From a virus, in the IMG/VR virus record IMGVR_UViG_3300047476_000704, positions 62,001 to 126,000 of that record: a stretch of DNA of 64,000 nt; one strand, 5' to 3'. Of this stretch, positions 182 through 61,305 are shown one piece after another. Below the pieces are notes generated by a model that was not told the DNA's origin, made no database searches, and saw only the letters and a program-made list of their open reading frames with translations. Within the stretch, counting starts at the first letter, position 1, and the number at the start of each line of letters is the position of its first letter. The position numbers and the translations under genes are program-made.

Positions 182-393
182 TATTTTTTATCCTTCTTCT
201 TTCTTGCTAATCTTTTTTCTTCAATTGATAAATTTTTATCTACCTCAACTTTTGGTTTGTCTTCTTTCTTTGGACGTAGGGCTTTCCACTCTGATTTGGG
301 AACGAACACCCATCCATAATTTGCTACCTTTTGGTCAGCTTCTAATTCTGTTACTCGGCGGATTTCTCCTTCTTTACTTTTAATGCACTTCAT
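181..393 (-). CDS. Small basic hypothetical protein
   Basis: 70 residues, start ATG with GGAG nine bases upstream. The N-terminal half contains a compact 'YGWVFVPKSEWKALR' segment. The C-terminal third is almost entirely Lys/Arg/Glu (residues about 41-70, ending RLARKKKDKK), which suggests a nucleic-acid- or protein-binding tail. It sits between the RNase H-like exonuclease and the helicase and is translationally coupled to the helicase through a TAATG junction, so a role in replication is plausible. No family was recognised. Confidence 0.6.
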   Translation of the reverse strand: MKCIKSKEGEIRRVTELEADQKVANYGWVFVPKSEWKALRPKKEDKPKVEVDKNLSIEEKRLARKKKDKK

Positions 394-1481: not shown

Positions 1482-2609
1482 TTATTCATCACCTAATACA
1501 CTTGTATCTACTAATAGATTATCTGTATCCAATGAATCTTTTTTGTATTGTAGAATAGTGTATTCACAAATTCGTTTATAGATTTGTTCTTTTACCGATG
1601 GATTTGCTTCCAATATTTCCTGCAACTCTTTGGCTTGGAACTTAAATTCTTCACCAGTTTCAGTATCAACATATGTGTACCACGCTCCACCTTGTTTAAC
1701 AAAGTTATAATCCTTCATTGCTCCCAACCATGCGCCATAGTTATCAATACCCCTATCAAAGAAAATATCAAAATCTGCGGAACGCAATGGTGGTCCTAAT
1801 CTATTCTTAATTACATTGGCTCTTACTTTGATACCAACGATTCTCTCATTCCCCTTGTCATCCTTTGCTTTGATTTTACCAGTTGATGCTAATCTTAACC
1901 GAACCGAAGCATGGAAAGCAATTGCTTTACCACCCGATGTTGTCCAAGGGTCTGAAAATGCCATTGCGTTCATCTTTTGGCGTAATTGGTTTGTGAATAC
2001 TAATGTAATCTTTTGTCTACCAATCACATTTGTGATTTTACGCATTGCCTTTGAAATGATGATTGCTTTATCAGTTGCGTAACCATCTTTATCGTAATCA
2101 GCTTCTAGCTCTCTTTTTGTAGATGCTGCTGCAACTGAATCCACTACGATAGTTACTAACTTATCCTTATCACCTTTTCGTACTTGCTCAATGATTGTAT
2201 CAATTGTTTCAAATATATCCTCAACGGTATCAGCCGTAATATATAATAGTTTGGATACATCTACACCAATTGCATCAAAGAACTCTCTACTTACAGCAGT
2301 TTCAGTATCAATCAATACTGCAACACCACCTTGCTTTTGCGTTTCTGCTAGCACGTGTGCTGATAATAATGATTTACCACTCTGCTCTAAACCAGTGATT
2401 TCCGTAATTCTACCAACCGGAAAACCTCCGAATGGTCTATTGGAAACCGCCACATCCAACATTGTTGCCCCAGAAGAGACCCACCCACTTATATTAGTGG
2501 GTGCGTCCTCCGAGTCATCATCTAAAAAGAACGCAACCTTTTGGTCTTTGTATTTCTTGTTTAGATTATCGGCAATTTGTTGTGCTAAATCCGCTTGAAC
2601 TTTTGCCAT
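1482..2609 (-). CDS. RecA/UvsX-family recombinase
   Basis: A 375-residue strand-exchange ATPase. Walker A is GLEQSGKS (73-80), the catalytic Glu is likely E103 in 'IDTETAVS', and Walker B is VTIVVDS with D157. The stretch 'FTNQLRQKMNAMAFSDPWTT' followed by 'SGGKAIAFHASVRLRL' matches the DNA-binding loop region and the GG.A..F.ASVRL block of bacterial RecA, so this protein looks closer to RecA than to T4 UvsX. It has one of the strongest Shine-Dalgarno sequences in the window (AAGGAG at 2615-2620, six bases before ATG). It lies directly downstream of the gp32-like gene. Confidence 0.9.
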   Translation of the reverse strand: MAKVQADLAQQIADNLNKKYKDQKVAFFLDDDSEDAPTNISGWVSSGATMLDVAVSNRPFGGFPVGRITEITGLEQSGKSLLSAHVLAETQKQGGVAVLIDTETAVSREFFDAIGVDVSKLLYITADTVEDIFETIDTIIEQVRKGDKDKLVTIVVDSVAAASTKRELEADYDKDGYATDKAIIISKAMRKITNVIGRQKITLVFTNQLRQKMNAMAFSDPWTTSGGKAIAFHASVRLRLASTGKIKAKDDKGNERIVGIKVRANVIKNRLGPPLRSADFDIFFDRGIDNYGAWLGAMKDYNFVKQGGAWYTYVDTETGEEFKFQAKELQEILEANPSVKEQIYKRICEYTILQYKKDSLDTDNLLVDTSVLGDE

Positions 2610-2626
2610 TGTAACTCCTTTTTATT

Positions 2627-3617: not shown

Positions 3618-5153
3618 TTATTTGAGGATAATTTCATAATTTTTTATTTTATCAATAACCTGTTGATGTGAAATTGCAATTGATTCGGCATAGTCTATAT
3701 TTTTTTCATATTGCATAAACCATTCAGCTAATTTATTATCCAAATCATATTCTAAATTTTCGTAATTATATACTGATTCGTCAATTACACCATTACCATA
3801 TGCAACTAAAAACCAATTATATTCTTCAAATTGCGTAAATAAATTATCCGTATCAATATTAGTTGGAGTCCTTCTTTTCCAACTATTCAATCGTTTTTTC
3901 ATTTTTGCACTTAATGAAGTTGTACGATTGTAATCTTTCCAGAAACTCGTATCATTTCTATCGGTGTTATAATGAAATTGTAAAAAATCAGTTATACAAT
4001 CGGATGTATCTGCTATTAATTTATTATAATCTAAAATTTCTTCTTCATTTATATTATGAATAGAATCGGAAGTTAGGTTTCTCAATTGTGTTATTATTAG
4101 CCAAATAGATGTTGCTTCAATCGGCTCCGTAAACATTGAACTTAAACCAACTGCTACACAATTTTTTACCCAAGGTGTAACATATCTACCAGCATCAAAT
4201 GGAATAACTTTGTTAATTTTTATTATTTGGCCAACCATTTCCTCAGCCTCTTTCTTTGCTTCCTCTACATTTATATATCTATCATCAAATACATAACCAC
4301 ATCCCCAACGATTTTGTAATGGTATTTGCCACATCCATCCATATTTCATAGCAATTGCTTTGGTATATGGTGGTAGGGTATCACTTTTTGGTAAAAAGAA
4401 TGGTATGGCTGTATTTACTTTTAGTTTATCCTGATATGATTTCCATTCTACACCAAAGTGCTTTCCAATAAATAATCTTGCAAATCCAGTACAATCAAAT
4501 ACAAAATCCGATTTTACTTCAACATCGCCACATTTAATAAACCCAAGTCCACCACTTTCATTTGAAATAATATCGGTTATTTTACCCTCAATCCGTTTTA
4601 TACCACGTTCTTCGGCTTTCATTCGTAAAAACTTTGCCAATAAACTTGCATCAAAATGATAACTATAATTTATAGTAGAACTTATATTACCATTTTCGTT
4701 TATAAATGATGATTTATTATTGTATGCTAATTTAGAAGCCAAATTAACATCACCAATCATTTCGCCATTTGCTATTGCATTTATATATGCATATTGCTTT
4801 CCATTATCGTTTAACCCAATTGTTAAATTATTATCTTTGGATGTAAATTTGTGAGGACTTAATTTTGATTCCGAAACTGAAAAATTATGTAAATATTTAT
4901 CACCCGTTCCTCTCCAATTTTCAAAACTAATTCCTATTTTGAAAGTTGCGTTGGTATATTGTATGAGTTCGTTTTCCTTAATTCCCAAACCACGCAGTAA
5001 CCAAGGTAATTGTGGAGTAGAACCTTCACCTGCTCCCAATATACCAACTTCTTCACTTTCTATAACTGTTATGGTATCTTTTGGACAAATGCGCTGTACA
5101 TATAATGCAGTCAACCATCCAGCAGTTCCACCCCCAGCTACAACTATATTCAT
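3618..5153 (-). CDS. Flavin-dependent (tryptophan-type) halogenase
   Basis: 511 residues. The FAD-binding GxGxxG is GGGTAGW (7-13) and GAGEGSTP follows at 40-47. The catalytic lysine region aligns as 'ATFKIGISFENW', with K72 in the place of PrnA/RebH Lys79. The signature WxWxIP is present (W273-M-W275-Q-I-P278). A Glu equivalent to PrnA Glu346 is seen in 'FTEPIEATS' (E346). The active site therefore looks intact, unlike a decayed oxygenase. FADH2 would have to come from a host reductase. The substrate is unknown; genes of this family occur in marine T4-like phages without an assigned role. It is the last gene of the operon that starts at 8901, and its ATG overlaps the upstream gene's stop. 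Confidence 0.85.
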   Translation of the reverse strand: MNIVVAGGGTAGWLTALYVQRICPKDTITVIESEEVGILGAGEGSTPQLPWLLRGLGIKENELIQYTNATFKIGISFENWRGTGDKYLHNFSVSESKLSPHKFTSKDNNLTIGLNDNGKQYAYINAIANGEMIGDVNLASKLAYNNKSSFINENGNISSTINYSYHFDASLLAKFLRMKAEERGIKRIEGKITDIISNESGGLGFIKCGDVEVKSDFVFDCTGFARLFIGKHFGVEWKSYQDKLKVNTAIPFFLPKSDTLPPYTKAIAMKYGWMWQIPLQNRWGCGYVFDDRYINVEEAKKEAEEMVGQIIKINKVIPFDAGRYVTPWVKNCVAVGLSSMFTEPIEATSIWLIITQLRNLTSDSIHNINEEEILDYNKLIADTSDCITDFLQFHYNTDRNDTSFWKDYNRTTSLSAKMKKRLNSWKRRTPTNIDTDNLFTQFEEYNWFLVAYGNGVIDESVYNYENLEYDLDNKLAEWFMQYEKNIDYAESIAISHQQVIDKIKNYEIILK

Positions 5154-18080: not shown

Positions 18081-18569
18081 TTAGTATTCTAATACACAAT
18101 AATCCATTGATAAAGTAACCGTAATATTTACGGGGTCATTTGAACTCCAATCCATTTCACCAAATTCAGCTGCTGAAATGAATGCTCCAATCAATTTCCA
18201 CTCTTCTACTTTATCACCAACCGGTCCTAATGCGTAAATACTAATATCTTTTTTATAGAAATCCGCATAACCATCACGACCTGTAATTGATTCGTGTGAT
18301 GTTCTAATCCATTCCATAACCGCTTGTGCGCCAGATGGAACGATTGGGTCATACAATGTGATTGTTAAATCAGACCAATCAGATTTTCCTTTAATCTTAC
18401 GCTTCACGTTGATGTGGTCTAATACTACAGTTTCACTTGTATATTTTGGTCTATTAGCTGCTTTTACCATAAATGATGGGATACCACCCGCTTCCATTAC
18501 GAATCTACTAGCTAATTTGGGTTCAAAATTTTGATAAAAAACCTTATCATACCCTAATACGTCTGCCAT
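18081..18569 (-). CDS. Tail tube protein (gp19-like)
   Basis: 162 residues, close to T4 gp19 (163). It starts MADVLGYDKVFYQNFEPKLA, and 'SRFVMEAGGIPSFMVKAANR' is typical of the family; the C-terminus 'VNITVTLSMDYCVLEY' fits the tube beta-sandwich. It is transcribed alone between a phage-type promoter and a strong terminator, and has AAGGAG (18580-18585) ten bases before the ATG, consistent with very high expression. It follows the sheath gene directly, the classic gp18-gp19 order. Confidence 0.9.
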   Translation of the reverse strand: MADVLGYDKVFYQNFEPKLASRFVMEAGGIPSFMVKAANRPKYTSETVVLDHINVKRKIKGKSDWSDLTITLYDPIVPSGAQAVMEWIRTSHESITGRDGYADFYKKDISIYALGPVGDKVEEWKLIGAFISAAEFGEMDWSSNDPVNITVTLSMDYCVLEY

Positions 18570-18595
18570 TTTTTATATTCTCCTTATATCTTTTA

Positions 18596-18620: not shown

Positions 18621-20903
18621 TTATGCTCCAAAAGTTGCGCCAGTTGGTAAAATATTGAAGTCAATTTGGATAAATTCAGCAGTTTTAGTAGGTTGTAAGA
18701 AAATTGCTCCTTGTAAGATGTTTCTATCAATCACATCCGGTGTGTTATTTGAATCATCCATTACCACTCTAAATGCGTATAAACCTTGTCTTTGTTGGAT
18801 ACCCTCTAAATATGGGTTTACAGTATTTAAGAATCTTCTTCTAGTTTCAGTAGTATTTTGTTCAAACACTAAATAACGAGATGTAGAAGCGATGTATTTC
18901 TTAACAGTGATTAACAATCTTCTTACATTGATTCTATCTAAAGCGGATGGTTTAGATTGTAAAGTCTTTTGTCCGAATGCTACGATACCTTGTCCTGGGA
19001 ATTGAGCGATAGGATTAACTTTTCCTTCGTATAATGTATCTCTATCAGAGTGAGTTAAACGATTTACTACACCAATTGCTCCAGTGATACCACCACGATT
19101 TAAACCGGCTGGTGCGAACCATTCTGCTGCTGAATTATCATTAGCTGCGTAAACTGCTGGCATCAATACTGATGGTGGAACTGATACTAATTTGTTTGTA
19201 TTCAAATCAATTGTCTTAATCCAAGGGTAGTAAGTTGCTGCGTAGTTAGTATCTAATGATTCTGCTACTTCAACTGCTCCAGCGATTGTACCATCTTGTG
19301 CTACTGAATCCATAATATAGAAACAATCAGTACGAGATTCACACAAATCAATACCAGCTTGTGCTACCGATGGGTGTAATGTTTGGATAACACCTGGCAT
19401 AACTACCAAATTAATATCGTATTCGTCTTGATTAGATATTGCATCCAATGCTTTTTGATATGCTACTGAACCACTTTTAGCCGAAGTTGATAAATCAAAT
19501 CCTTGTGAGTTAGTTGCTGTAATAGATGTACCCTTTGTAATTGTTATTGCCGGGCTCATACCATCAAAACCACCTTGTAATGCTATTGCGAATGTTCTTT
19601 TAGCAACGTCTGCTGCCGTAGAACCAGTTAAATCTAAACTAGCACTTACATATCCAGTACCACCGGCATCTAATGCGAAACCAGATGTAGTTGTTGCACT
19701 TGCAGGAATTGGTTTTAAGAATTGAGTGTTATCAGCTGAATATGTACCTTCATAATCAAATCCACTTACATAAGATGCAGTAGTTGCTGATTTTGTTTGG
19801 TAAGAAACATCAACTAATGAACCAGTGTATAAACCTGCCCAAATTGGGTGTGAGTAACCAGCGTTTGCGTAAGGTGCAGCTGTTACTGGAATTGTATCTG
19901 GGTTCGATGGTGTAATGTAGATATAACGAGATTTGTTAGAATAATCACCATATTCGGTAATTTTTCCATTTGCATCAGATGTTACATATCTATCACCAAT
20001 TGCTCTTGCAATATAGTTTGGAGATGTTGGGTCTAAATTTAAGTTAGAGAATGTTTCTAATACATATTTTCTCTTATCAGTATCAGAGTATTTTCTAACT
20101 TGCAATGTAAATGTTGCGTAATCAGTACCAATAACCGAACCAGCAGCTTTAACATCTGAAATTACAATCTTAAATCTTGTGTTTTCAGCGTTACCATCTG
20201 AAATTGTATTTACCTTAAACAAGTTATAACGGCTACCACCAATTAATTGTGATTGGATGTATGGAGTTGAAGCTCCAACCGCATCATCGTTAAAGTTTTG
20301 TGCTGGTAAAATTACAGCCGAAGCAGTATAGTGTGAAGTTCCCAAAATACTTTCAAATGCAGTATATGCATATGCATTTTTAGAACCTAATGCCGATGTA
20401 CCAAATACCTTTGTTACTGCGTATGGGTCTGTTGGTGTAATTGAAAATTGGTTAGAATCTCCAAATTCTCCAATTTGAGAACCACTAATAAACATAACAT
20501 CTTCTCCAGATGGAGTAAATGTAGAACCAGTAAATGATGCAGATGTATTTGAGTTTTCGGTATTGTTTAATGTATAAACTAATTTTTGAAAACCACTACC
20601 AGATGCAATTACACCAATTGGTCCTAATTCTTTATATCCACCCAATCCAGCAACTCTTACGATTGTTACTACACCAGTTTCTCTTAAATAGTTTTGTACT
20701 GCATTTTCAGTATAATAAGTGCTATCAACAACACCAAAAATATCTTCAAATTCAGATTGAGTGTTTACAATTGTAGGTTTGAATGCTGGTCCTTGTTTGA
20801 AAGGTCCGATGAAAGCTCCACCGATTGCACCAACACCCTGTGCTATAAAAGATAAATCATTCTCTCTAGTGAAAACACCAGGTGATACGATTTTTTCAGC
20901 CAT
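18621..20903 (-). CDS. Contractile tail sheath protein (gp18-like)
   Basis: 760 residues (T4 gp18 is 659). The N-terminus 'VSPGVFTRENDLSF' and 'GAIGGAFIGPFKQGPAFKPT' are hallmark sheath features. The C-terminal 'INVRRLLITVKKYIASTSRY' and 'LVFEQNTTETRRRFLNTVNP', ending 'QIDFNILPTG', form the conserved contractile core. The extra length lies in a central Ser/Thr/Ala-rich beta region (about 110-480), likely the surface-exposed domains. AAAGGAG lies nine bases before the ATG. It is transcribed with its own promoter copy just upstream of the tube gene. Confidence 0.95.
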   Translation of the reverse strand: MAEKIVSPGVFTRENDLSFIAQGVGAIGGAFIGPFKQGPAFKPTIVNTQSEFEDIFGVVDSTYYTENAVQNYLRETGVVTIVRVAGLGGYKELGPIGVIASGSGFQKLVYTLNNTENSNTSASFTGSTFTPSGEDVMFISGSQIGEFGDSNQFSITPTDPYAVTKVFGTSALGSKNAYAYTAFESILGTSHYTASAVILPAQNFNDDAVGASTPYIQSQLIGGSRYNLFKVNTISDGNAENTRFKIVISDVKAAGSVIGTDYATFTLQVRKYSDTDKRKYVLETFSNLNLDPTSPNYIARAIGDRYVTSDANGKITEYGDYSNKSRYIYITPSNPDTIPVTAAPYANAGYSHPIWAGLYTGSLVDVSYQTKSATTASYVSGFDYEGTYSADNTQFLKPIPASATTTSGFALDAGGTGYVSASLDLTGSTAADVAKRTFAIALQGGFDGMSPAITITKGTSITATNSQGFDLSTSAKSGSVAYQKALDAISNQDEYDINLVVMPGVIQTLHPSVAQAGIDLCESRTDCFYIMDSVAQDGTIAGAVEVAESLDTNYAATYYPWIKTIDLNTNKLVSVPPSVLMPAVYAANDNSAAEWFAPAGLNRGGITGAIGVVNRLTHSDRDTLYEGKVNPIAQFPGQGIVAFGQKTLQSKPSALDRINVRRLLITVKKYIASTSRYLVFEQNTTETRRRFLNTVNPYLEGIQQRQGLYAFRVVMDDSNNTPDVIDRNILQGAIFLQPTKTAEFIQIDFNILPTGATFGA

Positions 20904-20940
20904 TTTTAATTTCTCCTTTTAATAATAATTTTTATCTTTA

Positions 20941-47070: not shown

Positions 47071-49968
47071 TTATCCTATATATGCTACCGAAAAATTATC
47101 GTTTGAATCAAATGAAATTTCACCCGTTGCTACTACCATTTTAAGTGTATCACCCACTGCTAATTTGGAAATAGTAGAACCACCCGTATGATTCATAGTA
47201 GTATTTGTACCAAATTCAATCATTACCTGTGGAGTTCCAGTAGTTCCAGTTGTATTATTTTTATATACAATAAGTTGAGATATTGTACCCAAACTATTTG
47301 AGTTTGTTCTACAAACCAAATTAACTTGATATAACCCAGCAATTGGTGCAGTAAAGGTACCTGTTGAATTATCCCAACCACTACCTTGTTGATAATCTAC
47401 ATTTAGATAACTACCCGTTAATGGTGTTACTGCTACTTTTGCTCCACCAGCACCAGTTACCCTAAATGCAGGTCTATTTGGCATTGTGATTGAACCACTT
47501 GCTATACTCAATGAACCTGTTACAAATGTTGAACCAGTTATCAATAATGAACCAGTTATTTGCTGTGAACCACTTAATATAATTGTACTACCACTTGTCA
47601 ATATCAATGATGAGCTTGTTGCTATGATTGATGAATCACTAACAAATGTAGAACTTACAGTCAATGAACCAGTTATACCAACTGAACCACTATATTGAGA
47701 TAAACTAAAAGTTGTACCTTGTACACCCTGTGTACCTTGTACTCCTTGTGTACCTTGGTTTCCTTGTGGGCCTTGATTACCCTGCGGGCCTTGATTACCC
47801 TGCGCTCCACTACCGGTTGCCCCTTGGTTACCTTGCGGGCCTTGATTACCTTGTGTACCATTAGAACCATTAGAACCTTGATTACCTTGAGGTCCTTGAA
47901 CACCTTGTGTACCTTGGTTTCCTTGAGGCCCTTGCGAACCTTGTGTTCCTTGTGAACCTGCTGAACCTGATATATTTCGTATTCTAGTATCTAATGATGA
48001 ACTGAATGATGTTAGTGAACCAGTTAGTTCTGTGAAGTTTGTAGAACCAGATAAAATTAGTGAACCAGTTATTTCTAATGTACCACCATTTTTAATATAC
48101 AAATTACTACCACTTGTCAATGTAAATGATGAAGTGTTTGTTAGTAATGCAGAATCACTAATTCCAATTGAACTTACAGTTAATGAACCAGTAATACCAA
48201 CCGAACCGCTGTATTGCGAAATATTAAATGTTGTACCTTGTGTACCCTGATTTCCTTGCGGTCCTTGATTACCCTGTGGTCCTTGGTTTCCTTGCGTACC
48301 ATTTGTACCATTAGCTCCTTGATTACCTTGCGTACCTTGTGGTCCTTGACTTCCCTGTGGGCCCTGTGAACCACCTGAACCAGATATATTTCGGATTCTA
48401 TTATCTAATGATGCGCTAAATGATTGTAATGAACCAGTTATTTCAGTAAAATTAGCAGAACCAGATACTACCAATGAACCAGTCATAATTTGATTACCAT
48501 CAAAAATATTACTACCTTTTGTAGCTAAATTTGGTGCACCATATACATTACCTGGTACAGTCAAATCACCATTGTTATCAAATTCCCAAGCATAATCACC
48601 ATCTCCGGCATCGGTAGTCAATACAATACTATCGTTGATACCAACTACAATATTTATATTATCACCAGATGCACCAGTTATTTGGTTTATTAACCCGTCG
48701 TGGCTAAACACAACACCACCTACTGATGTGTAAAAATTACCATCATTACCAAATCTATAATTAGAATTGTTTGATGTAACTCTAATATCACCAGATGAAG
48801 ATATATGAATATCATCATCATTTTGATATATTTGAGTTCCGTTATTGAAAATTACACTTCCACTCACATATTGTGAACCACTAAATTGATTTGAACCAGT
48901 AGTTGCTAAATTAGCTATTGATGGTATTGAATTTATTATATTTGTTAAATTGTCTGTAATAGTATAACCCGTTGAATTATTAACCACATTAGTATCACCA
49001 ATAACTCCTGCTAAATATCCATCAGTAATTATACCATTTCCCGCATTAGCAGAACGAAGATAAACATCACCATCTGCATCAAAAACAATATCACCAGAAG
49101 TTGCTACTAATGTTATATCCGAATTTGTAATTGTATCAGTTGTAAAAGTAAAATCCGCAACATCAGCTGCTGTACCACTTGCACCCTGATTACCTTGTGG
49201 TCCTTGACTACCTTGTACACCAGCAGCTCCCGATGTTCCTGATGTACCATTTCCACCTGCAGCACCATCTAAATTAGTTGTCCAATTTGTAAATGAACCT
49301 AATGCATTTATATTCGTAACATTTAATACCAATACACCAGTATTACTATCATAAGATACAACATCACCATGAAAATGTTCTGTTAATGAATGCGCTACAA
49401 TAATGTGTTGAGCTACTGTATATGATAAACCAGCCGATGTTGTTAGTGTTTTATTTACACCCGTATTTAAGGTTGATAAATCAATAGTATCTGTCGATGT
49501 TCCAATATAGATACCACTTTCACCCGATGTACCAGATGTACCAGTAGTTCCAGATGTTCCATTTGCACCTTGATTGCCTTGAGGTCCTTGTACCCCACTA
49601 CTACCAGCAGTTCCATTTATACCTTGAGGTCCAATTGGTCCTTGATTGCCTTGCGGGCCCGTTGCTCCACTTGTCCCACTTGTACCAGATGTTCCCGTTG
49701 AAACTGATGATGAAATTTCGTTTATTCTACTATGGAACGATGCAGAATTTGTATTAAATATTGTGGTAGCTAATTTAGTATCAAGTGAATTACTCAATGC
49801 AGTTGTTACTAAATCCGTTGCAAATGTAGTATCTAGCGAAGATGTTAATTGGTTTATTGAAATTTTATAAGTTGTACTACCAGATATACCAACCACAAAA
49901 GTTGTATCTAATGTAGCAGGACTTAATGCAGGTAATTCCGATATTTTTTTTGTTGGTGTAAATCTCAT
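47071..49968 (-). CDS. Collagen-like fibre with C1q-like C-terminal domain
   Basis: 965 residues. The N-terminal 'MRFTPTKKISELPALSPATL' is a known type of phage fibre start. Collagen-like segments (about 100-150, 245-265, 525-560 and 685-750) separate beta domains, two of which are near duplicates ('QYSGSVGITGSLTVSSIGIS' and its relative). The last about 135 residues resemble C1q: 'FRVTGAGGAKVAVTPLTGSY', then 'GTFTAPIAGLYQVNLVC' and 'AVGDTLKMVVATGEISF'. A C1q trimer would act as both trimerisation and receptor-binding tip, so no S74 domain is needed. Confidence 0.8.
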   Translation of the reverse strand: MRFTPTKKISELPALSPATLDTTFVVGISGSTTYKISINQLTSSLDTTFATDLVTTALSNSLDTKLATTIFNTNSASFHSRINEISSSVSTGTSGTSGTSGATGPQGNQGPIGPQGINGTAGSSGVQGPQGNQGANGTSGTTGTSGTSGESGIYIGTSTDTIDLSTLNTGVNKTLTTSAGLSYTVAQHIIVAHSLTEHFHGDVVSYDSNTGVLVLNVTNINALGSFTNWTTNLDGAAGGNGTSGTSGAAGVQGSQGPQGNQGASGTAADVADFTFTTDTITNSDITLVATSGDIVFDADGDVYLRSANAGNGIITDGYLAGVIGDTNVVNNSTGYTITDNLTNIINSIPSIANLATTGSNQFSGSQYVSGSVIFNNGTQIYQNDDDIHISSSGDIRVTSNNSNYRFGNDGNFYTSVGGVVFSHDGLINQITGASGDNINIVVGINDSIVLTTDAGDGDYAWEFDNNGDLTVPGNVYGAPNLATKGSNIFDGNQIMTGSLVVSGSANFTEITGSLQSFSASLDNRIRNISGSGGSQGPQGSQGPQGTQGNQGANGTNGTQGNQGPQGNQGPQGNQGTQGTTFNISQYSGSVGITGSLTVSSIGISDSALLTNTSSFTLTSGSNLYIKNGGTLEITGSLILSGSTNFTELTGSLTSFSSSLDTRIRNISGSAGSQGTQGSQGPQGNQGTQGVQGPQGNQGSNGSNGTQGNQGPQGNQGATGSGAQGNQGPQGNQGPQGNQGTQGVQGTQGVQGTTFSLSQYSGSVGITGSLTVSSTFVSDSSIIATSSSLILTSGSTIILSGSQQITGSLLITGSTFVTGSLSIASGSITMPNRPAFRVTGAGGAKVAVTPLTGSYLNVDYQQGSGWDNSTGTFTAPIAGLYQVNLVCRTNSNSLGTISQLIVYKNNTTGTTGTPQVMIEFGTNTTMNHTGGSTISKLAVGDTLKMVVATGEISFDSNDNFSVAYIG

Positions 49969-57436: not shown

Positions 57437-57997
57437 TTATTTCTTTTTAATAAATCTACCATTTTCATCTTTTTTAAGATTACGATTTTTTAACCACATT
57501 CTACGCTCTTCGTATTTTGTTTCACCTTCATCACCATACTTATCAACAAACCATTCCAATGAATATCTACCCTTTGCTTTTTCTTTTTGTATTTGTTTGG
57601 TTTCGTTTGAATGAGTTTTACCATACATGCCATTTTTTTCACCTTTGGCAATAATTCTCATTTTTTCAACCCATTCCATATATTCATCCGTATCTCGTCT
57701 ACCTTCCCAATTATCGCCACCAGCTCCTCTGTAAGTATCGTTATACCCACCCTTTACTGAATTATGTGCTAGTATCAATTCTTCTTCCAATTTTTGTGCC
57801 ATAGTTGGTTCTACCTCACAAATAATCTCTTTAATCATATTATCCCAACCATATTTACGAATTGCTTTATATAAAGAATTTTTTTTATTTTTGGTATAAG
57901 CATTACATTTGTGAGAAGACATTCTACAATCAAAATCATTTGTTCTACCAATATACACTTTTCCATTTGGTGAACTTATTTTATATATTACATCCAT
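57437..57997 (-). CDS. GIY-YIG homing endonuclease with NUMOD3 motif
   Basis: 186 residues. The GIY-YIG domain shows 'VIYKISSPNGKVYIGRTNDF' (Y4 and Y14-I-G), Arg/Lys in 'RMSSHKCNAY', 'SLYKAIRKYGWDNM' and a catalytic Glu in 'KLEEELILAHN'. NUMOD3-like 'GEKNGMYGKTHSNE' follows (about 117-130). It is free-standing, just downstream of the major capsid gene, a common place for homing endonucleases that invade conserved phage genes. The capsid gene appears uninterrupted. Confidence 0.9.
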   Translation of the reverse strand: MDVIYKISSPNGKVYIGRTNDFDCRMSSHKCNAYTKNKKNSLYKAIRKYGWDNMIKEIICEVEPTMAQKLEEELILAHNSVKGGYNDTYRGAGGDNWEGRRDTDEYMEWVEKMRIIAKGEKNGMYGKTHSNETKQIQKEKAKGRYSLEWFVDKYGDEGETKYEERRMWLKNRNLKKDENGRFIKKK

Positions 57998-58094: not shown

Positions 58095-59741
58095 TTAGAT
58101 ATTAGCCAAACCTTCAACCAAGATTTTCCCGTAAAATTCTGGTCTCACGAGCTTCTTCGCGTAACGAGTCATAACACCTCTACGTGGAGTAAAGTTATCT
58201 GGGTCGTACACTAATGGAGTTAAAATCAATGGTACATATGGAGCGTAAACCGCACCTGTCTCAAGGAAGTTGTTTCCTTTGTAACCTAACAAGATTTCGT
58301 TAGAAGTCATGTATGGGTTTTTGTAAACAGTGTAGCGATTTGCCAATGAACCTACTTGAGTTACACCAGCTGCAAATTGTTTAGCATCTTTATCAGCGTT
58401 TACAGAGAAAGCTGGGATTGATTCTAAAATAGTACAAACGTCAGGAGAAGCAACGATAAAGTTAGCTCCACCACGCATTGTCAATTGGTGAATCTTGTTA
58501 GATACTTTGTTCAATTTAGTTCCCAAAGTCTGGAACCAAGTGTTTTTAGTGTAAGCACTTGCGTTAGATGAATCAGAATCAATTGCGAATGCTGAACCAT
58601 TCCACTCATTACCAATCTTTGTAGACCAGTATTCAGTAGTCAATGCATTTCCTTTCAATAAATCCAAGATTTCCAAGTCAATCTCTAATGAGATATATTC
58701 AGATAACATAGCAGTCAATTCAGCTTCTGCATCAATTGAGTGGTATGCGTTCAAATCTTGTGCTAATTCAGGAGTCCACACTGCTTTCAACTTACGAGTT
58801 TTAGCAACGATTGCTTCCGATTTCAATTCTAAGTCAACTTGTGGGATGTTCAAGTTAGTACCTGAAGATGGGTTAGAGATTGGGTCTCTATCTTCGAAGT
58901 CACCACGAGAAGTTGCAGTTGGTTGTACAGAGTAAACCAAACCTACAGTTGCAGAAGTTGAACCTGATGCCAATACTGATGAACTTACGATTAACGAAAC
59001 AGTTCCGTTAGAAGAGTAAGTAGTCAATGCTGGGTAGTAAGTGTTGATTGAACCAGAAGTTCCACCTTGTAATGAACCAGATACATAGAATGAACGAACT
59101 GCGTTAGTATCAGCAGATAATGCTGCTACTGAAGCAGATGCTAAAGTAATTTTGTACAAGTTACCAGCAGCCATAGATGCAGATAAAGATGTATCAAAAT
59201 TCAAATCAGACATTGCAGTAACTTTAGCTGCAGTAGCGAAAGATACGATAGCAGATTGGTCATTAACCGAATATGCATAACGACCATCGCCATAAAGACC
59301 GTTTTGAGGAGCGTTAGTTGAACCTAACTTCGCTGCTGATGTTCCACCATACAAAGATGTGCTAGATGCATCACCATATCCTTTTCCAGTTGTACCATAT
59401 TTGAAATCCATGTAGAAAATCAAACCTGATGGTAAGTTCATTGGTTGTACCGAAACAAATTCCTTTGCTGCGATTTCACCGAAGATACGGCGAACCAATG
59501 GTAAAGCTACACCAGACCATTCTTCTGAACCAGCAGAAAAACCTGTCTTTGTAGTCTCATCTAATAATTGTTTTGCTTGGTTTTCCAAGATTACAGCCAT
59601 TCCGTGCTCTTCTGTTGCACCAGCTAAACCTTCCAATAAACCAGTTTTTTCCCACTTGTTTTTCAACCCGCGAGTTTGCTCAAGCATAACCGCAGTTGGG
59701 TTTTTGCCTTCCATAAGCTTGTTTAAATCAAATTGTGCCAT
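58095..59741 (-). CDS. Major capsid protein (gp23-like)
   Basis: 548 residues (T4 gp23 is 521). 'LKNKWEKTGLLEGLAG', 'MAVILENQAKQLLDE', 'VRRIFGEIAAKEFVSVQPMN' and 'PSGLIFYMDFKYG' align well with T4 gp23. A prohead-protease site of the LxE type is seen at L60-D61-E62, near the T4 cleavage position. A Ser/Ala/Thr-rich region (about 190-285) probably forms the surface insertion domain. The ATG has AAGGAA ten bases upstream. It is cotranscribed with the core protein gene and followed by a strong terminator. Confidence 0.95.
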   Translation of the reverse strand: MAQFDLNKLMEGKNPTAVMLEQTRGLKNKWEKTGLLEGLAGATEEHGMAVILENQAKQLLDETTKTGFSAGSEEWSGVALPLVRRIFGEIAAKEFVSVQPMNLPSGLIFYMDFKYGTTGKGYGDASSTSLYGGTSAAKLGSTNAPQNGLYGDGRYAYSVNDQSAIVSFATAAKVTAMSDLNFDTSLSASMAAGNLYKITLASASVAALSADTNAVRSFYVSGSLQGGTSGSINTYYPALTTYSSNGTVSLIVSSSVLASGSTSATVGLVYSVQPTATSRGDFEDRDPISNPSSGTNLNIPQVDLELKSEAIVAKTRKLKAVWTPELAQDLNAYHSIDAEAELTAMLSEYISLEIDLEILDLLKGNALTTEYWSTKIGNEWNGSAFAIDSDSSNASAYTKNTWFQTLGTKLNKVSNKIHQLTMRGGANFIVASPDVCTILESIPAFSVNADKDAKQFAAGVTQVGSLANRYTVYKNPYMTSNEILLGYKGNNFLETGAVYAPYVPLILTPLVYDPDNFTPRRGVMTRYAKKLVRPEFYGKILVEGLANI

Positions 59742-59761
59742 TTGTTTTTGTTCCTTATTTT

Positions 59762-60895
59762 TTATTTAATTAGTCCTGCCAATTTTTTGAATCTATCAGA
59801 GTAAGCAGAATTTTCGCTGATGATTTGTTTTTTAACACCTGTACTTTTTTGTGGTTTAGAAGCTCCTTCTGTGATTCTTTTTACAGATTCTACTTTCTTA
59901 ACACTTCCACCCATTTTCATAGATTCGGCGATTGTTGAGTAAACCAATTTAACTTCACGAATTGTTCCAGTTCTATCGAATGAATCAATAACTTTAGATT
60001 TTTGTTCGTTAGTTAAGTTGTATCCTCTAAATAATTTGTTAGAATATAAAAGTTTAGCGTTCAACAAGTTAATCTCATTGATTGTAGACTTCAAAGTTTT
60101 GATTACAGAAATTGCTTGTGCTAATTCATTTTTCAATGATTTTGCTTCTGCCACTGCTGCTTTCTCTTCTTCTTCTGCTGCTTCTTCATCTTCTAATTCT
60201 TTGATGATTGCTTCGATGTTTAATTCTTCTTCGCCATCTTCTTCTTCTTCCATTGAATCTTCTTCTTCATCTTCTTCGGAGATTGATGAATCTGAATCGT
60301 CAGCGTTCATGTAAGTATCAACATCATCTGCATCCTCTTCCATTTCTTCTTCCTCTTCTTCTTCCATTTTCTCTGCGCCCAATTCGTCTTCTAATTCACG
60401 AATGATAGCTTCTAAATCTAAATCATCGTCAGATGGTGCATCCATTTCGTCTTCACCTTCTTCCATTTCATCTTCGCCATATTCACCTTCTTCCATTTCC
60501 ATTTCGTCTTCACCTTCTTCCATTTCCTCTTCCTCTTCTTCTGTGATTGATTTAGCGAAATCATAATCTTCAACCTCATCCTCTGGCTTACCAGAAGTTT
60601 TAGTTACGTCTGCTGCACCCAACTCATCTTCATCAGCTGCTGAATCTAATGTTGGTTGTGCACCACCCCCAATGTTAGAAGAACCTAATTCTTCTTCCAT
60701 TTTCTCTTCTTCTTCTTCCTCATGCATTTCATCAGCTTCCATATCTTCAGCTTCTGCACGCAATTTTTGAGAAAGAATGTTCTTCAAACGAGGAGTAAAT
60801 GCTTCCTCTAATTGAAGTTTTGCGTTTGCTAATGCAGTTTCTCTAACAGCTTTAGCATCGGCGATTGCTTCTTTTAACAATTTTGAACTTGCCAT
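59762..60895 (-). CDS. Prohead core scaffold (gp22-like)
   Basis: 377 residues. Helical N-terminus, then a very long acidic region (about 52-255) with many Glu/Met/Asp runs, a helical 'ELAQAISVIKTLKSTINEIN' segment, and a C-terminal block 'NLTNEQKSKVIDSFDRTGTI' followed by 'REVKLVYSTIAESM'. The final block matches gp22 homologues of T4-like marine phages (lt..qk.kv...FDra.t.rEVKLVy.tl.es). It acts as the internal scaffold removed by the prohead protease. T4 gp22 is 269 residues, so the acidic region is expanded here. Confidence 0.85.
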   Translation of the reverse strand: MASSKLLKEAIADAKAVRETALANAKLQLEEAFTPRLKNILSQKLRAEAEDMEADEMHEEEEEEKMEEELGSSNIGGGAQPTLDSAADEDELGAADVTKTSGKPEDEVEDYDFAKSITEEEEEEMEEGEDEMEMEEGEYGEDEMEEGEDEMDAPSDDDLDLEAIIRELEDELGAEKMEEEEEEEMEEDADDVDTYMNADDSDSSISEEDEEEDSMEEEEDGEEELNIEAIIKELEDEEAAEEEEKAAVAEAKSLKNELAQAISVIKTLKSTINEINLLNAKLLYSNKLFRGYNLTNEQKSKVIDSFDRTGTIREVKLVYSTIAESMKMGGSVKKVESVKRITEGASKPQKSTGVKKQIISENSAYSDRFKKLAGLIK

Positions 60896-61062: not shown

Positions 61063-61305
61063 TTATTTGTATAAACTACGGAATTTTTTTGGAATTTCTT
61101 TTAATTTTTTACCTCTGTAAAGGTCTTTTTGCTGAATTAGTTGTTTTCTTTCAGCTTTTTCCATCATTTCTCTTTTAGTAACCGATGGTTTTGTAAATTG
61201 TTGTCTATCTCTTAATTCTTTAACAACACCAATTGCATCAAACTTTTTCTTTAATTTTTTTAATGCTCCAGCAATATTGCCGTCTTTTACTTCAATGTTA
61301 ATCAT
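61063..61305 (-). CDS. Ribosomal protein bS21 (phage-encoded)
   Basis: 80 residues. 'MINIEVKDGNIAGALKKLKK' and 'GVVKELRDRQQFTKPSVTKR' match bS21, particularly the Bacteroidota form (I.VK.GenI..ALKr.KrKF...G.vreLR.R..FtKPSv.kR). The C-terminus is basic and longer than the usual 64 residues by about 16. R53 lies in 'MEKAERKQ', at the position where, from memory, Flavobacterium bS21 has Tyr54, which helps bury the 16S anti-SD. No SD precedes the ATG. It lies between the capsid-targeted family and the core gene. Confidence 0.85.
   Translation of the reverse strand: MINIEVKDGNIAGALKKLKKKFDAIGVVKELRDRQQFTKPSVTKREMMEKAERKQLIQQKDLYRGKKLKEIPKKFRSLYK

Follow-up and report, generated by a model that had tools for sequence, protein, structure and literature searches.

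A phage bS21 with arginine at the anti-Shine-Dalgarno capping position, and a modest excess of Shine-Dalgarno sequences in its genome

The T4-like phage analysed here encodes a ribosomal protein bS21 with arginine (Arg53) at the site of Tyr54 of Flavobacterium johnsoniae bS21, followed by a long basic tail, and Shine-Dalgarno (SD)-led genes are in modest excess in its genome. From these features we tentatively infer that the phage bS21 may enter the host 30S subunit, loosen the anti-SD and favour SD-led phage mRNAs. The window, a stretch of 64,000 nucleotides, corresponds to positions 62001-126000 of a 194,856-bp record that holds one bS21 copy; the record (G000) has 33% GC and 223 called genes, a single one of which lies on the plus strand.

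The plus-strand frame at 61063-61305 is full of stops, and the open reading frame reads on the minus strand from 61305 to 61063, giving the 80-aa product MINIEVKDGNIAGALKKLKKKFDAIGVVKELRDRQQFTKPSVTKREMMEKAERKQLIQQKDLYRGKKLKEIPKKFRSLYK. The Pfam profile Ribosomal_S21 (PF01165) matches this product with E 9.5e-15 (54.5 bits, cut-off 27) over profile positions 2-54 of 55, indicating a full-length family match, and its best solved relatives in a PDB sequence comparison are the bS21 proteins of 9i5v and F. johnsoniae (7jil). In the structure prediction (mean pLDDT 77.7; tail about 62), the best fold matches were S21 chains, but weak, and helix 3 probably extends through R53 to residue 66. A sequence-only reading had described a complete Bacteroidota-type bS21 with R53 at the Tyr54 site and a basic C-terminal extension of about 16 residues. 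The coordinates, the Pfam match and the gapless alignment around R53 bear this out, and the extension comes to 17 residues by comparison with the F. johnsoniae tail. The head-gene block runs in the order TerL, portal, prohead protease, small genes, bS21, scaffold-position protein and major capsid protein (MCP), so that bS21 lies among the TerL, portal, prohead protease and MCP genes, as in the phages of Chen 2022. Many host rpsU genes are preceded by an SD, but none was found before the phage bS21 gene, and no gene for bS18 or bS6, which could reshape the anti-SD pocket, was found in the whole record. A GIY-YIG/NUMOD3 homing-type endonuclease gene lies at window 57437-57997, adjoining the capsid gene.

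Table 1. Features of the bS21 locus and of SD-led genes, in window positions.
Feature	Position	Strand	Remark
Phage bS21 (rpsU-like), 80 aa	61063..61305	minus	between prohead protease side and scaffold/MCP genes
Arg53 codon AGA, site of F. johnsoniae Tyr54	61147..61149	minus	from alignment
27-residue basic tail, IPKKF motif	61066..61146	minus	helix 3 predicted longer (to residue 66), with predicted short end helix 73-79
Scaffold-position protein, between bS21 and MCP	59762..60895	minus	without SD here; SD in L020
Major capsid protein Gp23	58095..59741	minus	
SD-like AAGGA of MCP gene (AAGGAA)	59752..59756	minus	conserved in L020 (MCP 71% identical)
Tail sheath	18621..20903	minus	
SD AAGGAG of tail sheath (AAAAGGAG)	20913..20918	minus	in L020's contig with different flanks
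Tail tube	18081..18569	minus	
SD AAGGAG of tail tube	18580..18585	minus	in L020's contig too
UvsX/RecA-like recombinase (replication, not virion)	1482..2609	minus	
SD AAGGAG of UvsX (AAAAAGGAG)	2615..2620	minus	conserved in G003
SD AAGGA of DnaB-like helicase	191..195	minus	gene start at window 181, continues past window edge

The alignment of R53 to F. johnsoniae Tyr54 is free of gaps in this region, and where SD-blind Bacteroidia and the Chen phages have an aromatic residue, the phage protein has arginine. Arg53 was present in 10/10 contigs of the window group, and arginine was also present in two deeper relatives, L020 (53% identical) and L384 (47%). Among related phages, arginine is combined with a short tail in L021/L024, L040, L391 and L395, and with a different, mostly longer tail in L059-L061, L071, L383, L389 and L393's contig. 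In the capsid-protein tree, the Arg-type phages form one clade, well separated from phages with Tyr/His-type bS21, and arginine occurs in nearly every bS21 of that clade regardless of SD use, although contigs within a clade are not independent of each other. The earlier description of a tyrosine replaced by arginine is thus right as to the site, but because arginine is common to the whole T4-like clade, it need not reflect a (recent) replacement of tyrosine. In the survey of Chen 2022 (PMC9723584), 61/61 Bacteroidetes-phage bS21s were aromatic at position 54; the present clade, with several sister lineages, breaks the published rule that Bacteroidetes-phage bS21 always retains the anti-SD cap. 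L010 (1-1310) holds a mosaic capsid gene, the start of which is near the window type and the rest closer to the short-tail Arg clade.

Past position 54, the tail comprises 27 residues with a net charge of +8 in the phage protein versus 10 residues with a net charge of -1 in F. johnsoniae. The motif IP(K/T)K(F/Y) is common to the tails of the window group, L020 and L384. The search for further relatives with the IPKKF tail gave none beyond L020, and L384 surfaced in the capsid scan.

Among Bacteroidota hosts, the 80 closest bS21s were all aromatic in the Tyr54 column (77 Tyr, 2 His, 1 Phe). When 50 host bS21 sequences from 396 sampled genomes of the phylum were compared at position 54, arginine was found in 15, comprising 14/20 of the more distant matches and 1/30 of the nearest, which nearly all had Tyr or His. 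The Tyr54-column check proposed in the sequence-only reading therefore came out as expected for the closest hosts but not for the distant ones. In 20-kb stretches, 54/288 genes of Arg-type hosts were SD-led (18.8%, control 3.8%), compared with 10/336 of aromatic-type hosts (3.0%, control 5.4%; p=6e-11, L542-L581, with genomes not independent and typed by bS21 alone). These results support the view that residue 54 marks SD competence among Bacteroidota hosts. One residue is thereby linked to SD use phylum-wide, and it becomes testable whether residue 54 or the tail sets SD reading and whether phages exploit it.

SDs in the phage genome were counted as SD-like 5-mers at proper spacing, using a single gene caller and motif set throughout; the most upstream ATG was taken as the start, so that SD signals are diluted. 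In the record, 19/218 genes (8.7%) were SD-led versus 7/218 (3.2%) in a control window further upstream (p=0.024), and the proportion was also higher than that in ten Tyr/His-type phages (22/780 genes, 2.8%; p=0.0004). SDs exceeded both shuffled upstream regions and the control window, and AGGA/GGAG/GAGG peaked at -7 to -14, whereas in one positional control for G000 the energy distribution was not far from that observed. In G005, a contig of the window group, SD 5-mers showed no excess (4.8% vs 7.7% control). The SD enrichment in the phage genome is real but modest, and it is absent in G005 alone. The strength of the phage SDs was approximately -5 to -12 kcal/mol; the rpsU SDs, which are known to function on ribosomes of F. 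johnsoniae, are stronger, at -13 kcal/mol. The SDs reported earlier before the tail sheath, tail tube, RecA (UvsX) and MCP genes are present and the gene identities hold; that of the DnaB helicase gene was absent from the earlier list.

The motif TATTTATA was found 20-40 nt upstream of about 30 G000 starts (33 on the coding strand vs 4.3 in shuffles) and was enriched in related phages too. It is probably a T4-like late promoter and, at this distance, served as the marker of late genes. SDs preceded the MCP, sheath and tube genes as well as those for UvsX, DnaB helicase and thioredoxin, and the association of SDs with the late-promoter marker (OR 1.7, p=0.35) reached significance in none of seven contigs. 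No significant coupling of SDs to late genes emerged: the proposal that SDs favour virion genes keeps its three virion examples, but replication genes are SD-led as well.

In related phages, the proportion of SD-led genes was 10.7% in G003, 26.5% in L020's contig and 13-43% in the L060/L061/L383/L393 group, and it was 2.4% in four short-tail Arg phages and 2.3% in L384. Between G000 and G003, 81% of the SD 5-mers were unchanged versus 57% of the control 5-mers; in the comparison of G000 with L020's contig, the corresponding counts were 3/4 and 10/96 (small numbers), and between G000 and G005 SD and control 5-mers did not differ in conservation. The TerL SD is present in G000 and lost in G005. 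The capsid-gene SD was found in those window-group contigs that include its start, in L020 and in the L060 group; it was absent from the Tyr/His-type phages of the L012-L082 set and from L024, L040 and L384. The MCP, sheath and tube SDs persist in L020's contig despite changed flanks, suggesting current selection for SD pairing.

Arginine alone was rejected as the cause of SD use, and the claim that it brings SD use by itself fails, because L021/L024, L040, L395 and L384 combine a Bacteroidota-like bS21 body and arginine with no SD use. Arginine together with the tail suits most of the clade as a cause, with L384, which has a homologous tail without SD use, as the exception. In other T4-like phages (L407, L426, L435, L444, L447 and L454), a Tyr- or Phe-type bS21 accompanies SD use, indicating that SD use mostly tracks another factor, probably the host. 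The huge phage L260 (LR756501, 735-kb) has a Tyr54 bS21, its own gene with AAAGGAGG, and an SD excess, which contradicts a simple Tyr/no-SD rule. The clade includes matched natural contrasts: Arg-type phages that have the tail or lack it, and that use SDs or do not, and a cultured Flavobacterium relative in which no bS21 is annotated.

The host was recognised from promoters as a member of Bacteroidota, at the phylum level only. Promoters of the Bacteroidota kind (TTG-N17-21-TAnnTTTG) numbered 21 on the coding strand in intergenic DNA versus 0.55 in shuffles, and since TAnnTTTG promoters occur in both SD-blind and SD-using members, they fix the phylum and not the class. Two profile models were built from host bS21s after trimming away position 54 and the tail. 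The phage bS21 body scored 75.3 bits with the model of aromatic-type hosts and 54.3 bits with that of Arg-type hosts, a difference of +21 bits, and is thus nearer to those of SD-blind hosts; for genuine hosts of the one or the other type, the two scores lie 33 to 52 bits apart. The nearest hosts by overall bS21 identity (57-60%) were likewise aromatic-type. The bS21 body of the SD-rich L020 was ambiguous (+3.9 bits), and the SD-rich L060 group ranged from -6 to +9. For the host class, tetranucleotide composition was not informative and a tRNA comparison found no shared anticodons in the sampled Arg-type stretches. A tmRNA search gave short conserved-end matches only. This T4-like Bacteroidota phage also carries a GOLLD RNA (RF02032, 293.6 bits) at G000 47287-47695 (L172 7287-7695), outside the window and beside a 25-tRNA array, a phage-encoded tmRNA (RF00023, 83.8 bits) at G000 49281-49670 (L172 9281-9670), and a tryptophan-halogenase-like gene at window 3618-5153 (PHROG 2928, E 3.6e-107).

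F. johnsoniae ribosomes with Y54A or tail-deleted bS21 made 3x and 5x more protein, respectively, from strong-SD mRNA (PMC9976891), suggesting that the anti-SD may be partly released where bS21 lacks the aromatic cap. Arginine can stack or form salt bridges, and hence a loss of anti-SD sequestration is not certain. Furthermore, the bS21 of the Pelagibacter phage HTVC008M enters E. coli ribosomes (70S) (PMC6375957), indicating that a foreign ribosome can take up a phage bS21. Judging from its homology, the phage bS21 would most likely enter the host 30S in the place of the host protein. With a body of the SD-blind type that lacks the aromatic residue stacking on A1534 and has a long basic tail instead, it would hold the 16S 3' tail less firmly. 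Ribosomes carrying it would be partly SD-permissive and would favour approximately 15-20 SD-led phage mRNAs, encoding replication proteins (UvsX, DnaB, thioredoxin) as well as virion proteins (MCP, sheath, tube); the effect would be to raise high-demand genes in general and not to switch to late genes. The earlier proposal, in which the phage protein replaces that of the host, frees the anti-SD and favours SD-led virion mRNAs, is partly supported: it gains from the contrast of arginine with the aromatic residue of the closest hosts and of the Chen phages, the effect of Y54A in F. johnsoniae, the SD excess and its partial conservation; the arginine of more distant, SD-using hosts, the Arg-type sisters without SD use and the SDs beyond virion genes speak against it. 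The stricter version, that an uncapped phage bS21 makes SD-blind Bacteroidia ribosomes SD-permissive and that SDs were placed on high-demand genes to exploit this, is rather doubtful; it would amount to a virus switching its host's rule of translation initiation.

Reprogramming of the host ribosome and matching to the host are about equally likely. Under the latter, which is a real contender yet short of probable, the host would be a member of Bacteroidota outside the SD-blind group with native Arg-type bS21 and SD-reading ribosomes, and the phage bS21 and SDs would follow the host with no reprogramming. The SD use of Arg-type hosts (18.8% vs 3.0%) fits this account, as do the middle of the phage bS21 (DRQQFTKPS, KAERK), which is like that of some Arg-type hosts, e.g. 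L521 and L524, and the SD use of related cultured phages, which tracks the host (immuto on Flavobacterium, ~2-3%; Mel-JY01 on Microcystis, 26%); the TAnnTTTG promoters, being shared by both host types, cannot separate them. However, the bS21 body fits aromatic-type hosts better by 21 bits and its nearest hosts are of that type, the SD use of the phage (8.7%) is below the Arg-type host average, and the closest cultured phage infects Flavobacterium.

It is unlikely that the phage bS21 is a plain replacement that sustains late initiation or evades autoregulation or degradation acting on host rpsU, with mRNA choice unchanged, the arginine inherited, and the few SDs separately tuned or ancestral leftovers from SD-using hosts. 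Such a role would agree with the arginine found across the clade regardless of SD use, with a phage gene that lacks the SD of host rpsU, and with its location in the head operon, which other bS21 phages share (PMC9723584), but the MCP, sheath and tube SDs kept in L020's contig amid changed flanks argue against it. Chance purine runs in an A-rich genome are a very improbable source of the SD-like motifs, since the positional control and the lack of excess in G005 are outweighed by the excess over shuffles and the control window, the -7 to -14 peak and the partial conservation.

The proposed loosening of the anti-SD by the phage protein has its nearest precedent in the F. johnsoniae bS21 mutants (PMC9976891; PDB 7JIL), which concern the same family and ribosomal site and in which loss of the aromatic cap raises strong-SD translation; the protein studied here differs in being carried by a phage and in having a natural arginine and a basic tail, not alanine or a truncation. 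The bS21 of HTVC008M is of the alphaproteobacterial type and cut E. coli translation to ~5% (PMC6375957). Chen 2022 and Mizuno 2019 had already suggested that phage bS21 takes the place of the host protein, in Chen 2022 late in infection (PMC9723584). The lake-phage bS21 genes of Chen 2022 likewise lie in the TerL-portal-protease-MCP region of large myoviruses. They differ in being opposite to the structural genes, whereas that of the window phage is on the same strand, and in encoding an aromatic residue at 54 (61/61), whereas the window phage has arginine and a tail 17 residues longer. The Tyr/His-type phages found here belong to an MCP clade distant from the window phage. The closest cultured relative is the Flavobacterium phage immuto (Immutovirus, NC_055915; TerL 57%, MCP 52%), which has the same head-gene order. 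Unlike the window phage, immuto lacks an annotated bS21 in the protease-scaffold slot, and none of its UvsX, DnaB, MCP, sheath and tube genes is SD-led; the Microcystis phage Mel-JY01 has bS21 in the same head-block slot as the window phage. The Arg-type clade bears on why so many aquatic phages carry bS21.
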